DNA of 64,000 bases from Haloarcula hispanica ATCC 33960 (GTDB lineage Archaea > Halobacteriota > Halobacteria > Halobacteriales > Haloarculaceae), in the NCBI RefSeq assembly GCF_000223905.1, contig NC_015943.1, positions 1 to 64,000 of the forward strand. Direction: 5' to 3'. Of this stretch, positions 8,832-46,505 are shown piece by piece (positions within the stretch are counted from its first letter, which is position 1; each line of letters begins with the position of its first letter). The notes beneath the pieces were generated by a model. That model was not told the origin of the DNA, did not search any database, and saw only the letters and a program-made list of their open reading frames with translations. The position numbers and the translations under genes were made by a program.

Positions 8832-10303
<1,472 letters not shown>

Positions 10304-10392
10304 ACTGACCGGGATCAGGCCTCTGGCCTGACCCACCTACATTGACTGGTGACCACAAGTCACCGCGAGTCGGCAAGCGCCGACTACTGCAT

Positions 10393-10471
10393 GGGCCCGC
10401 TGGGCTCACAAAGACCTATCCGAGGCGGATATCCCCTCACGGGGATGTCGGGTGCAACTCCCGACGGGTCC
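10393..10471 (+). ncRNA. tRNA-like fold in rRNA spacer (no anticodon arm)
   Basis: GGGCCCG (10393-10399) pairs fully with CGGGTCC (10465-10471), with one G-U pair, as a 7-bp acceptor stem. Directly inside the 3' strand is a perfect T arm, TCGGG-TGCAACT-CCCGA (10448-10464), with a near-consensus T loop. The D and anticodon arms are replaced by two tight hairpins with 3- and 4-base loops (10417-10431 and 10432-10445). It cannot decode. It may be a decayed spacer tRNA or a processing signal for RNase P and tRNase Z. Confidence 0.55.
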
Positions 10472-10486
10472 GTACTCCGTATCGCT

Positions 10487-10510
10487 TCGAATCCGTCCCC
10501 TTAAGTATGG
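10487..10510 (+). promoter_or_regulatory. candidate internal promoter in the rRNA spacer
   Basis: CTTCGAATCCGTCC followed by the TATA-like CTTAAGTA (10500-10507) repeats the arrangement of the distal promoter at 8532. It would start transcription about 150 bases before 23S and allow 23S-5S synthesis independent of 16S. Part of it also forms a CCGTCCC/GGGACGG hairpin, so a structural role is an alternative. Confidence 0.5.
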
Positions 10511-10678
10511 GACGGCGTTCGACTGTGATACGACGACAGATGCACCAGGTCGGGTGAAACCGCGCCTGGGAAGGGTCGATTCGCCCACCATCTCCACCTT
10601 GGGGGCGAGTATGAAACCGTGTGTACGTGCGATCCAGGCGTCCACTGGACTCGTTCAGTTGAACGAGTCACAACGACG

Positions 10679-13598
<2,920 letters not shown>

Positions 13599-13697
13599 AT
13601 TCATACGCACTGTGACTCATTCACCGACGATTTACTCGTCGCTGAACGAGTCCAGGCGCAAACTGGATCGCACGTAATCACACGGTGGAAAAGTTGA

Positions 13698-13738
13698 TCG
13701 AGACTGGTACTTTCGTGGTTCGATTCCACGACTCGACG
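13698..13738 (+). ncRNA. tRNA-like processing element 5' of 5S rRNA
   Basis: A T arm TCGTGG-TTCGATT-CCACGA (13713-13731) is closed by an acceptor-like stem, TCGAG (13698-13702) with CTCGA (13732-13736). The 3' acceptor strand CTCGACG ends exactly where 5S begins (13739). In Haloferax a tRNA-like structure at this position is known to direct tRNase Z cleavage for 5S 5'-end maturation. The match here supports the same mechanism. Confidence 0.7.
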
Positions 13739-13860
13739 TTAGGCGGCCACAGCGGTGGGGTTGCCTCCCGTACCCATCCCGAACACGGAAGATAAGCCCA
13801 CCAGCGTTCCGGGGAGTACTGGAGTGCGCGAGCCTCTGGGAAACGCGGTTCGCCGCCACC
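13739..13860 (+). rRNA. 5S ribosomal RNA
   Basis: 122 bases from TTAGGCGGCCACAGCGG to GGTTCGCCGCCACC, with terminal complementarity GGCGGC/GCCGCC. It lies 140 bases after 23S. It appears identical to remembered Haloarcula 5S except near 13844, where I read AAACGCGG and recall AAACCCGG. Confidence 0.97.
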
Positions 13861-13875
13861 ATTCATACTTACATA

Positions 13876-16829: not shown

Positions 16830-17350
16830 AAACGCCTGATTAGAAATCGTCGAAGACCTGCTCAACTCAGCCGAGAACCTCGTTCACGTCGATAACGTGC
16901 TGATGGACCGGGAGTTCGATAGCCAGCACGTTCTGGAGATGATCAGCCAGTGCGGGCTCTCGTACGTCGTGCCGAAGCGGATGCAAACCAATTTCGGGTT
17001 GCGGTTCTTCTACTTCGCATTCGCGTGTCTGCTGTACTCGATTTGGCGTGCAGTAGATCTACTCGTGCAGGTCGAATTGACCGGTGAGTACGAGCACTCT
17101 CCGATGGTGACGGCAGATAATACGCTGACGCTGCTGAAAAAGGAGACAGGAATCGGATAGTGAGGTTCTCCACCCGTGATAGAGGGCCGTCTGAGTGGCA
17201 ACGCTGTCGGAAGTCTCCGACATCCGCGGATATGATTGGAAGTTCGACAAGCTTGGACGTTTGGAGAGCGATCTGAGTCTGTTCCTCTTCACTAAACCTT
17301 CCGAAATCACGCATTACAGTCCCGCTAAACCCCCTGTAGTCTCAACTTCC
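16830..17350 (+). mobile_element. IS relic B (internally deleted transposase plus right end)
   Basis: Codons from about 16840 read NLVHVDNVLMDREFDSQHVL and EMISQCGLSYVVPKRMQT, containing the second catalytic Asp region of a DDE transposase. They then jump to NFGLRFFYFAFACLLYSIWR and end with LLKKETGIG (stop 17158-17160). The segment that would carry the catalytic Glu is deleted. DNA after the stop matches that after relic A at 5265-5460. Inactive; family unassigned. Confidence 0.75.
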
Positions 17351-17351
17351 A

Positions 17352-17827
17352 AGTCTGTAAGACTATATAGCGTTTGGGTGTTTATGAGACAGCGCAGGTC
17401 ATAACCTCTGGATTTTCAAAGGTGTGTCGTCTGTTACAGTCTTCTGTAATGGAAATCTGGAACAGGTTCTGAAGTGTGAATCACTCCGCGCTATCTTGTC
17501 GGTGCACAGCCTATTATTTCCAGACAGATGACTGTAGCACCAGTCTGTAACAGATATCTGTTCTGAAAGTCATGGACGTTGCGATCTAAAACAACTACAG
17601 ATTGATGTCTGTATCGGATCCCTGTTGCATATGATTAGTACAGATATGTGTCACAGGTAGGTGCTACGTGCTACAATTACAGACGGCGATTCCAGATCCG
17701 ATCCAACTCAGTCTCTATCATAGTACAGACAAGCATTACAGAAGGGAGGTACAGATAAATGGTGTAGATTAGTGGTACAGACAATTGGCCCACATGTCTG
17801 ACACAGATATATGTAACAGGGATCCAA
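17352..17827. promoter_or_regulatory. TACAGA iteron region upstream of parA (candidate centromere/operator)
   Basis: No gene in 476 bases, but many TACAGA or TCTGTA motifs. Just before parA they fall in a 13-base register: 17724, 17737, 17750, a degenerate one at 17763, 17776 and 17802 (CACAGA). Others lie at 17596, 17639 and 17678, plus an inverted TTACAG/CTGTAA pair near 17435. Regular spacing directly upstream of a parA operon suggests a partition site or operator. Confidence 0.65.
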
Positions 17828-18832
17828 ATGAGGAAGTGTATGATAACGACCGTCGTCTACGCTGAATCCGGGGGGACGTACAAAACGACTATGACAGCGA
17901 ATCTCGCGGTCGCATTCAAGCGGATGGGACTTGATGTTCTCGTGATTGACTTGGACCCGCAGACTGGGAATCTTACCTCACTCTTCGACGTCGGAGAAAA
18001 CCGTGGCAACCCGGACGCAGACAATCTCGTAAAACACATTCTCGAAATGCCTGATGGAGACTTTGATGACCTCATCGAGACCGCTGAGGAGGGCGTCGAC
18101 GTCATTCCGAGCCACGACATGCTTGGGGATTTCACCTCAAATCTTGAGCAGAAGATTTCCTACGAAACTGGAATGAAGGGGATTTCTCGCGATGAATACC
18201 CCCGCTTTGAGTTACTATACAATCTTCTCTGGGAGCAGGAGCAATTAAACGAAAAGTACGACGCGGTCCTCATCGACCCCAACGCACGCGCTGAAGACCT
18301 CCTCTACAATGCTATCTACGCGCTTCGAACACTGGTGGCGCCCGTCAAGCCAGCTGGAAAGGGGAGTCTCAGCCTTGATGGCCTTGAGGAGATGGTCGGA
18401 AACATGGAGACTGCGTTGGACATCGAAATCGGGCTTTCGTGCGTGGTTCCATCCGGAGTCGGCCAGACGAACGCCCACAAGCAGTATCGCGATCAGTTCG
18501 AAAATACAGACGCCTTCGCAACGCCAGTCTCCATTGGGTCACGAGAAAGTTTGATGGACGCCATGTGGGAAGCCCGTGGCTCTGCATTCAAAGTAGTAGA
18601 GGAGCGGTGGAAGACCTACGAGGAAGACGGCGAGATGGTCTCGAAGAAAGGGGAGCGTAGAGTTCCCGACCGTGAACTCCAGACGCTTGATAAACTTTGG
18701 CAACTGGCGGGTTTCATTGCGACTGAGACGTTCGACGTCGACATTGATCATGAACTCGTCTTAGATATTGACGATTATGGAACCGAGACCGTAGAGTTCG
18801 ACCTTCCCGCTGAACCGGAGGTGGCTGACTAA
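17828..18832 (+). CDS. parA: ParA-family partition ATPase (Soj-like)
   Basis: 334-aa MinD/ParA-fold ATPase, expected to use ATP-driven DNA binding to segregate the replicon. The A motif reads YAESGGTYKTT, keeping the P-loop Lys-Thr but lacking the usual signature Lys (xKGGxxKT). The A' motif VIDLDPQTGNLTSLF and the switch VLIDPNARAEDLLYNAI are present. A second ATG at 17840 (MITTVVYAES) is a possible start. The C-terminus is long and acidic. It overlaps the next gene by one base and follows the 13-bp TACAGA array, which is a likely autoregulatory or centromere site. Confidence 0.9.
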   Translation: MRKCMITTVVYAESGGTYKTTMTANLAVAFKRMGLDVLVIDLDPQTGNLTSLFDVGENRGNPDADNLVKHILEMPDGDFDDLIETAEEGVDVIPSHDMLGDFTSNLEQKISYETGMKGISRDEYPRFELLYNLLWEQEQLNEKYDAVLIDPNARAEDLLYNAIYALRTLVAPVKPAGKGSLSLDGLEEMVGNMETALDIEIGLSCVVPSGVGQTNAHKQYRDQFENTDAFATPVSIGSRESLMDAMWEARGSAFKVVEERWKTYEEDGEMVSKKGERRVPDRELQTLDKLWQLAGFIATETFDVDIDHELVLDIDDYGTETVEFDLPAEPEVAD

Positions 18833-19350
18833 TGGGGGGCGATTCATTCAAATCGGGATCGGGTAACCTCAATTTCGGAGATAACGATGAGGAAGAAGGA
18901 GACGACGAGACAGAGGAAGCCGGTGAGGAGATCGATGACACCGCAGACGAGGAGGCGGATGATCTGGAATCCAAAGAGGTCGTCTCTGAGAAAGCAGCTG
19001 ACAGCCGGGACTCCCCAGAAGCGAAGAAAGCGGATAGTACCAGCGAAGAGAGTACGACGAGCAACTCGACAGCCAGCGATACTGGATCACACCAAACGAG
19101 TGGCCACAAGTATCCGTACTTCGTGCGTCGGAGCAACGTCGGGGATGAACGAGACAATCGCCTCGAGCTCTTCGCTCGCGATGAAGTCGTCTCACAAGAA
19201 GCGGAGTTTCGGAGCCAGCTCGCTTCGGAACTCGGGGCAGACGACATCGCGAAGACGGACGCCCGTGAGTATGCGCTTCTCGCGGCGTTCGACAACGTAG
19301 AGGACGTTGCAGAACTCATGAGAGGAGATGGATACGGAGAACTCGATTAA
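18832..19350 (+). CDS. acidic partner protein of ParA
   Basis: 172 aa. The first ~85 residues are a disordered, very acidic stretch (EEEGDDETEEAGEEIDD). A conserved C-terminal domain of about 80 residues follows: HKYPYFVRRSNVGDERDNRL, ELFARDEVVSQEAEFRSQL, TDAREYALLAAFDNVEDVA. It starts on the last base of the parA stop codon, so it is almost certainly co-translated. The position and a basic FVRR segment make it the likely centromere-binding partner (ParB role), although I see no classical ParB or RHH motif. Confidence 0.8.
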   Translation: MGGDSFKSGSGNLNFGDNDEEEGDDETEEAGEEIDDTADEEADDLESKEVVSEKAADSRDSPEAKKADSTSEESTTSNSTASDTGSHQTSGHKYPYFVRRSNVGDERDNRLELFARDEVVSQEAEFRSQLASELGADDIAKTDAREYALLAAFDNVEDVAELMRGDGYGELD

Positions 19351-45171: not shown

Positions 45172-46434
45172 ATGTCGAATCAGGTTGTCACTCGGACACT
45201 CAAAGCGAGTATCTGCAACCACTCGCAAGTCTGTGACGACCTCGATTCGCATGGCTTTGCCGCGTCGAAATTGTGGAACGTCGGGCGATGGACAATCTCG
45301 CGTGTCTGGGACGCTATCGGCCACATTCCAGACGCCGACGAACTCTGTTCGTACCTCAAAACCCACGAACGCTATGCAGACTTGCACAGCCAATCTAGTC
45401 AGCGAGTTCTTCAGGAACTCGGTGAGGCGTTCGTCTCGTGGTACGAACAAGACGACCCGGAGGCGAACCCACCCGGCTACCGCAAACACGGCGACGACCA
45501 CCCACGCTCGACGATGACGTGGAAAAACCAGGGCTTCAAACTCGACACGCAGTACAACCGTGTCCGACTTTCCAAGGGCACGAACATGAAAGAGTCGCGC
45601 TACGCCGCCGACTACATACTCTGTGAATACACACTCCAAGCAGACGACCAGACGCTTGACGCTGTTGAAAACGTCCAGACGGTGCGTGCTGTCTGGACTG
45701 GTGAGCAGTGGGAGCTACATTTCGTCTGTAAAACGCGGATTGAGGCGCCTGAGACGCCCGGTGAGAAGACAGCAGGTGTTGACCTCGGTATCTGCAACAC
45801 TGCGGCTGTCTCTGTCGGTGACGAGACGCTGTTGTATCCAGGGAACGCCCTGAAAGAAGACGCTCACTACTTCCGACAGCAGGAATACGACACGGAAGGC
45901 GAGAATGGCCCCAGCGACCACGCAGAGTGGGCACGACAGAAGAAATCCCGGCGACAAGAACACTTCCTACACGCTCTCTCGAAAGACATTGTTGAGCAGT
46001 GTGCTGACCGAGGTGTTGAGACAATTGCAGTCGGCCATCCGAAGAACATCCGTGACGACCAAGACTGGGGACGACACGGCAACAAACGCCTGCACGACTG
46101 GGCGTTTGAAACACTGCTCAACCACATCGAGTACAAAGCCCACGAACGCGGTATCGACGTAGTGCGTGTGGACGAAGCAGGATTGAAAACATCGAAAACC
46201 TGCTGTGACTGTGGGACGGAAGCTAACTCAAACCGGGTTGAACGTGGCCTGTACGTGTGTGCAAACTGCGACTTAGTTGCGAACAGTGACCTGAACGCGG
46301 CAGAGAATATGCGAAAAACGGTAACTCCGAGTCCTGCGAAGGATAGGAGTAACGGCTGCTTGGCTCAGCCATCGGTATACCTGTTCGACAAATCCACGGG
46401 GCAAGTAGCCCCACAAGAACGGGTCGTTCCGTGA
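45172..46434 (+). CDS. tnpB: TnpB RNA-guided nuclease (IS1341 type)
   Basis: 420 aa, full length. RuvC-like catalytic residues are in place: Asp in AGVDLGICNTAAV (about 202), Glu in VETIAVGHPKNI (about 283) and Asp in NSDLNAAENM (about 371). A zinc ribbon CCDCG...CANC lies between the last two. TnpB proteins cut DNA using a guide RNA from the element's right end. Without TnpA, the element depends on another copy for movement. Nothing indicates inactivation. Confidence 0.93.
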   Translation: MSNQVVTRTLKASICNHSQVCDDLDSHGFAASKLWNVGRWTISRVWDAIGHIPDADELCSYLKTHERYADLHSQSSQRVLQELGEAFVSWYEQDDPEANPPGYRKHGDDHPRSTMTWKNQGFKLDTQYNRVRLSKGTNMKESRYAADYILCEYTLQADDQTLDAVENVQTVRAVWTGEQWELHFVCKTRIEAPETPGEKTAGVDLGICNTAAVSVGDETLLYPGNALKEDAHYFRQQEYDTEGENGPSDHAEWARQKKSRRQEHFLHALSKDIVEQCADRGVETIAVGHPKNIRDDQDWGRHGNKRLHDWAFETLLNHIEYKAHERGIDVVRVDEAGLKTSKTCCDCGTEANSNRVERGLYVCANCDLVANSDLNAAENMRKTVTPSPAKDRSNGCLAQPSVYLFDKSTGQVAPQERVVP

Positions 46435-46505
46435 ACCATAATATCCCAATCAAGCGGTGCGGTGCCGTGGGAATCCCACGACTTCAGGCGTGTGGAGGAA
46501 GTCAA
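46300..46505 (+). ncRNA. candidate omega-RNA at the TnpB right end
   Basis: In this family the guide RNA covers the 3' part of tnpB and the right end, and the guide begins just past the element. The two hairpins at about 46468-46503 fit the scaffold, and the guide would start near 46505 (ACCCGATCTCG). Boundaries and expression are inferred. Confidence 0.4.

Follow-up and report, generated by a model that had tools for sequence, protein, structure and literature searches.

A 13-bp-Pitch Iteron Array Upstream of a Haloarchaeal parA Gene as a Candidate Partition Site in Haloarcula hispanica

The parA Locus and Its Iteron Array

The genome assembly of Haloarcula hispanica ATCC 33960 comprises 2,995,271, 488,918, and 405,816 bp. 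The window, which is the whole 64,000-nucleotide stretch of DNA analyzed in this study, is located on the contig of 488,918 bp (C1). We take C1 to be the minichromosome and C2 to be pHH400. The same three replicons are used in the literature on this strain (PMC3528665). The window also contains a complete rRNA operon at 8832–13861 and an Rfam match to sot0042 (sense overlapping transcript RNA) at 46319–46495. The features of the parA locus are as follows, in window coordinates.

17431–17465, no strand assigned: iteron cluster A, with four half-sites in one 13-bp phase (CTGT at 17431, ACAG at 17436, CTGT at 17444, and ACAG at 17462)
17524–17561, no strand assigned: iteron cluster B, with five half-sites, including the near-perfect dyad CTGTaACAGATATCTGTt
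17609–17682, no strand assigned: iteron cluster C, with five half-sites (CTGT at 17609 and 17622; ACAG at 17640, 17653, and 17679)
17725–17819, forward strand: iteron cluster D, with six direct half-sites (17725, 17738, 17751, 17777, 17803, and 17816)
17796–17802, forward strand: promoter-proximal element GTCTGAC, conserved across parA clades with differing iterons
17807–17813, forward strand: probable TATA box, ATATATG here and TTTATG in relatives, located about 30 bp upstream of the ATG at 17840 and between the iterons at 17803 and 17816
17840–18832, forward strand: parA, whose open reading frame opens at 17828 and whose probable true start is the ATG at 17840; it matches AAA_31 (2.9e-18) and CbiA (2e-15)
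18832–19350, forward strand: partner gene encoding 172 amino acid residues, overlapping the parA stop codon (TAATG)

The 20 ACAG/CTGT half-sites between 17431 and 17819 form four clusters, within each of which both strands keep the 13-bp phase without exception. In the slightly larger region of 17300–17839, 26 ACAG/CTGT sites were counted on the two strands, of which six fall outside the cluster lattices. The counts were compared with those of 5000 dinucleotide-preserving shuffles, whose mean site number was 7.3. Eight same-strand pairs were exactly 13 bp apart (shuffle mean 0.05, never more than 2), two CTGT sites were followed by ACAG at +5 and three ACAG sites by CTGT at +8 (shuffle means 0.02 and 0.02, respectively). 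None of the 5000 shuffles matched the observed number of sites or of 13-bp same-strand pairs. When both strands were placed on one joint lattice, with ACAG at p and CTGT at p+8 mod 13, 16 of the 25 neighboring sites were in phase, compared with a random mean of 1.9 and a maximum of 9 in 20,000 trials. Moreover, ACAG-N9-ACAG-N9-ACAG occurs only three times in the whole 3.89-Mb genome and two of these occurrences are in this array.

A preliminary description of this DNA had placed TACAGA or close variants at 17724, 17737, 17750, 17763, 17776, and 17802, all of which are correct. The sites are TACAGA at 17724, 17737, 17750, and 17776, TGTAGA at 17763, and CACAGA at 17802, and AACAGG at 17815 adds a further lattice position. 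It had also reported copies on both strands further upstream. These copies exist, but they are grouped in clusters with phases of their own. That description had seen mainly cluster D; it did not note the dyad, the lattice on the second strand, the division into four clusters, the promoter overlap, or the probable parA start. Its one-sided TACAGA unit has to be replaced, as an alignment of 440 sites, taken from relatives as well as the window, yielded ACAGAYRTCTGTW as the consensus repeating at 13 bp. ACAGAYRTCTGTW is a palindrome of 12 bp with one additional W; the unit is therefore its own complement and tiles with a period of 13 bp. Judged from this consensus, the unit is a 13-bp dyad whose lattice can be written either as CTGT-W-ACAG or as ACAGA-N2-TCTGT, and TACAGA is its stronger half-site.

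The parA open reading frame opens at 17828. The ATG at 17840, 12 bases past the first ATG of the open reading frame, is the more probable start because most homologs begin at residue 5 and because the distance between TATA box and ATG is near-constant. In relatives, GTCTGA precedes the ATG by 41–47 bp, and TTTATG or ATATATG precedes it by about 30 bp. A TATA-to-ATG distance of about 30 bp is typical of leaderless haloarchaeal transcripts. Cluster D overlaps this probable promoter. With the TATA box lying between the iterons at 17803 and 17816, occupancy of these two should block transcription.

The overlap with the promoter also suits the main rival explanation, in which the array is only an operator, i.e., a site where a repressor or activator of the parA operon binds cooperatively, without any segregation role of its own. 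The TATA box is enclosed by iterons of cluster D and the promoter-adjacent iteron is the most conserved copy, as an operator would have it. However, 20 half-sites in four clusters over 390 bp are far beyond the needs of an operator. Together with the evidence from other loci described below, this leaves the operator-only explanation unlikely, although it cannot be dismissed.

Spacing and Sequence of the Iterons in Other parA Loci

The 500 bp upstream of 30 close parA relatives (about 68–94% identical) were analyzed. The genera in this set include Halorubrum, Haloarcula, Halorientalis, Natrinema, Halobacterium, Halorussus, and Halococcus. These upstream regions contained 552 half-sites, of which same-strand distances of 13, 26, 39, and 52 bp were found 202, 141, 103, and 96 times, respectively, whereas shuffles gave about 1 per distance (1.3 at 13 bp). 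The opposite-strand offsets peaked only at +5, +18, and +31 and at -8, -21, and -34. The 13-bp spacing persists hundreds of bp upstream in these relatives, which also argues against a site that serves as an operator only. Little sequence is conserved between the half-sites. With the spacing kept and the intervening sequence little conserved, selection appears to act on the 13-bp period itself, as far as can be judged from sequence comparison.

More distant haloarchaeal parA loci also possess the 13-bp period, with the different sequences TTGAACCAGTTGA, TTCATTANTTGTG, CTTAGATAAGTNT, and CTATACCGTATAA. When periods of 8 to 20 were compared at 86 loci, period 13 scored highest at 81, and at 84 it exceeded 200 mononucleotide shuffles. 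Summed over the loci, the lag-13 score was 1228, while lags other than multiples of 13 had a median of 39. These 86 loci share ancestry and are not 86 independent events. The lattice was absent at L091 and only weak at L095. Loss of the spacing in related replicons had been named in the preliminary description as an observation that would refute a partition site; instead, almost all related parA loci retain the 13-bp lattice. An origin of the array by chance or from base composition, for which no support was found, is refuted by the shuffle controls, none of which approached the observed lattice, and by the conservation of the period across many genera; we give it practically no credence.

The genome of H. 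hispanica contains three further close relatives of this parA, which makes four co-resident loci in all. Upstream of the parA at C1:270729 are six TTGAAY at exact 13-bp steps, and upstream of that at C1:210664 is TCTTAG at 13-bp spacing. The parA of pHH400 (C2:22430, L003) has CTATACCGTATAA-type repeats, of which one pair is upstream of parA and more are downstream of the partner gene. The 13-bp lattice of pHH400 is thus mainly 3′ of the partner gene (L003 2740–3060), a position that is not expected if the array were only an operator of parA. A further 26 loci, which form a clade and come from other genomes, have the TTCATTANTTGTG iterons. That five types of sequence occur at a single pitch would be hard to explain without one family of binding proteins with a fixed packing geometry and a drifting specificity. 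Two draft assemblies each contain two ACAGA-type parA loci, which are those of Halorubrum halophilum (L015 and L036) and Halococcus thailandensis (L037 and L038). These double loci fit poorly with strict incompatibility by iteron or with one iteron type per cell.

Different from the iterons, GTCTGAC is common to several clades, being present in 43 of the 51 ACAGA loci, 13 of the 26 TTCA loci, and others. Since clades with different iterons retain it, some other protein probably reads it, and it looks like a separate regulatory element.

The association of the array with parA was also approached from the DNA side. The bare pattern ACAGAYRTCTGTWACAGAYRTCTGT, with two mismatches allowed, was searched in 391 haloarchaeal genomes and hit 29 of them, whereas the reversed pattern used as a control hit none. 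At 23 of the 29 loci retrieved, a ParA of the same family is encoded within about 1.5 kb. The L138 match is at a contig end, and the start of that contig has another pattern match and a partner; this array probably adjoins a locus of the parA family across the contig end. The L143 match is about 3 kb from parA. At L139, L140, L141, and L142, the locus center has 4–7 ACAG/CTGT sites on a 13-bp lattice, and no parA of this family was found in the 17–19 kb examined around these clusters, which are possibly secondary sites.

Iteron arrays are typical of plasmid origins, and a gene for Orc/Cdc6 at C1:853 is about 17 kb from the array. Both points would suit a replication origin bound by its initiator, to which parA is adjacent by chance. 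The array, however, travels with parA and the partner gene in nearly all relatives. Moreover, simultaneous deletion of oriC6 and oriC7 from the H. hispanica minichromosome was not possible, which means that no other minichromosome origin suffices (PMC3936714). On the basis of these deletion data, the replication-origin explanation was rejected and is regarded as very improbable.

ParA and the 172-Residue Partner

In addition to AAA_31 and CbiA, which have the P-loop fold, ParA matched the ParA-like phrog_164 (6.8e-32). Different from type Ia ParA, it begins at its own P-loop and lacks an N-terminal DNA-binding domain or HTH. It also does not meet the deviant Walker A motif KGGxGK[ST], as the signature lysine is replaced in every readable locus of this ParA family. 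The ParA clades read [SA]E[AS]GG..KT at Walker A, as compared between 17840–17895 of the window and L002–L099, and the protein of the window reads ESGGTYKT. The clade of the window has GGT[YF]KT, in which Tyr or Phe stands in place of the P-loop glycine that precedes the catalytic lysine.

The partner consists of an acidic N-terminal part, which is probably disordered, and a conserved C-terminal domain at about residues 88–172. In all 65 loci that were selected by their parA (L001–L004 and L010–L070), a same-strand partner with the same C-terminal domain is located directly downstream. The partner is considered the best candidate for the binder of the array, for which no binding data exist. 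Invariant or near-invariant positions of the partner alignment are P6, Y7, R10, R11, R18, E34, D54, R56, E57, and G78. AlphaFold monomers have an extended segment followed by helices at 28–45, 52–65, and 67–76 or at 13–30, 37–50, and 52–61, with helix lengths of 18, 14, and 10 residues. The order of a strand (RLELFAR), a helix, and a helix with T-D-x-R-E resembles a ribbon-helix-helix (RHH) protein, a resemblance that rests on the AlphaFold monomer only.

Database searches did not provide independent support for this fold. No Pfam or NCBIfam family was assigned to the partner domain, and its PHROGs search returned nothing significant. Searching profile A1 against all PDB sequences found nothing related at E up to 10. 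One of 29 partner members matched RHH_5 weakly (E 0.093). The hhalign comparison of the partner with seven RHH_1 proteins gave a probability of 0.1%, and two Foldseek searches found nothing significant; the RHH domains of PrpA/ParD and the TCP-like domains among their hits all had E above 2. A relative of the partner was also not found in viral contigs. Because the sequence, profile, and fold searches gave nothing significant, an RHH fold of the partner remains an inference that is not confirmed.

The presumed DNA-contact segment of the partner varies among clades in step with the iterons. The segments and their iterons are RLE[IVL][HF]xR with ACAGA, RVPLFLQ with TTCA, EHVAFLR with TTGAA, RTVQLHLQ with CTTAG, and QRPIFIR with CTATA. 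At the N-terminus, the partners of L003 and L004 have a short GxGxDPFA-like motif and that of the window has FKSGSG. Such a short motif is plausible as the contact with ParA.

These features also bear on the possibility that the array is a partition site whose direct binder is not the 172-residue partner but ParA itself or an unlinked host protein. The fold of the partner is not confirmed as DNA-binding, and the sharing of GTCTGAC by clades with different iterons implies that at least one other protein probably reads this region. ParA is an unlikely direct binder, given that it starts at its P-loop without an N-terminal DNA-binding domain, and a host protein would not need a separate site for each parA clade. 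Moreover, it is the contact segment of the partner that differs between clades as the iterons do. Another direct binder is accordingly judged improbable, more so than an array that is an operator only.

A Putative Partition Module and Known Systems

Comparative evidence supports the earlier suggestion of a candidate archaeal centromere, which remains a candidate without data on binding or plasmid stabilization. We consider it probable that the 400-bp array is a centromere-like partition site and, at the same time, the operator of a haloarchaeal module of ParA and adaptor; binding and segregation have not been shown. In the proposed mechanism, a dimer of the partner would bind the 13-bp dyad iterons via its C-terminal domain, and the partner would coat each cluster with one dimer per 13 bp. 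Successive dimers would be turned by about 86° (B-DNA, 10.5 bp per turn). The preliminary description had stated that a 13-bp pitch spreads protein around the helix, and this arithmetic holds, while its meaning for the protein is inferred. The flexible N-terminal tail of the partner would touch ParA-ATP on the nucleoid and stimulate its ATPase activity, and through this contact the replicon would be pulled or tethered. The full array would also repress transcription of parA and the partner gene, which is inferred from the bracketing of the TATA box by cluster D. The identity of the binder, the stimulation of ParA, and segregation are likewise inferred, whereas the lattice and its conservation, the change of iteron sequence at a fixed period, the pairing of the two genes, and the overlap with the probable promoter are observed. 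Several observations speak against the module: the exception of pHH400, the missing or weak lattice at L091 and L095, the double ACAGA loci, the L139–L142 clusters without parA, a partner without a significant match to any known DNA-binding family, and a ParA without the signature lysine.

The type Ib ParABS layout is met by this locus, which has a ParA without N-terminal HTH, a small downstream adaptor, and an upstream repeat site. Similar to the SegAB system of Sulfolobales, a ParA-type ATPase gene is followed by the gene of a small archaeal protein, and sites are located upstream and in the promoter (PMC12284271). SegB likewise has a 13-bp palindrome, TCTAGASTCTAGA, as its site (PMC12284271). 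Different from the array, however, the 46–49 SegB sites stand singly and are spread across the chromosome rather than in tandem at a fixed 13-bp pitch, and SegB is an established RHH protein, which the partner is not. A sequence relation of the partner to SegB was not found in the comparison with solved structures. A chromosome-wide scatter of the SegAB type was not met in H. hispanica, as the three-site lattice was found only here and at one other match; isolated single sites were outside this count.

ParFGH of TP228 and delta-omega/parS of pSM19035 share the type Ib layout with a ParA without HTH and a small adaptor, and their tandem short upstream sites double as operator (PMC7308502, PMC9499535). 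They differ from the H. hispanica locus in that they are bacterial and have other site spacing, and no sequence relation between the adaptors was detected. The sites of omega are 7-bp heptads. In tubC and parC of types III and II, arrays of short iterons are beside the segregation operon and several dimers bind per site, as proposed here, but the motors (TubZ and ParM) and the binders are different. The AspA-ParB-ParA system of pNOB8 also serves partition of an archaeal plasmid and has its site upstream of the operon, but it consists of three proteins with one 23-bp palindrome and spreading of a winged-HTH protein, without a fixed-pitch array (PMC5120986). Thus, SegAB is nearest in layout and motif length, while ParFG/parH and delta-omega/parS are nearest in logic. 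The proposed module would work like SegAB or ParFG/parH, although membership in either has not been demonstrated, and we place it among the Walker-type partition modules, as a variant, rather than within SegAB.

In the literature surveyed, no account of a haloarchaeal iteron array adjacent to parA was found, but most subscription papers were outside the scope of this survey and such absence is not proven. The way in which haloarchaea pass on their many large replicons is not known, and in the literature surveyed archaeal centromeres have been described for Sulfolobales only. As a tentative generalization, which may well not hold, haloarchaeal secondary chromosomes and plasmids would share one partition system of fixed 13-bp pitch, in which the packing geometry of the adaptor is kept and its sequence specificity diversifies by clade. 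Co-resident replicons would thus carry different centromere codes, and ParA would work without the signature lysine. Since the site is recognizable by its period and not by its sequence, testable centromeres can be named on the plasmids and minichromosomes of genera such as Haloarcula, Halobacterium, Halorubrum, and Natrinema. Each such locus provides a named candidate binder as well as natural pairs of adaptor and site for decoding specificity, and the partition module could yield stable low-copy vectors. Relatives of this ParA were found in 180 plasmid records. Homologs of the partner in plasmid records are often annotated as "acyl-CoA dehydrogenase," which is probably mistaken, as their sequence gives no support for it.
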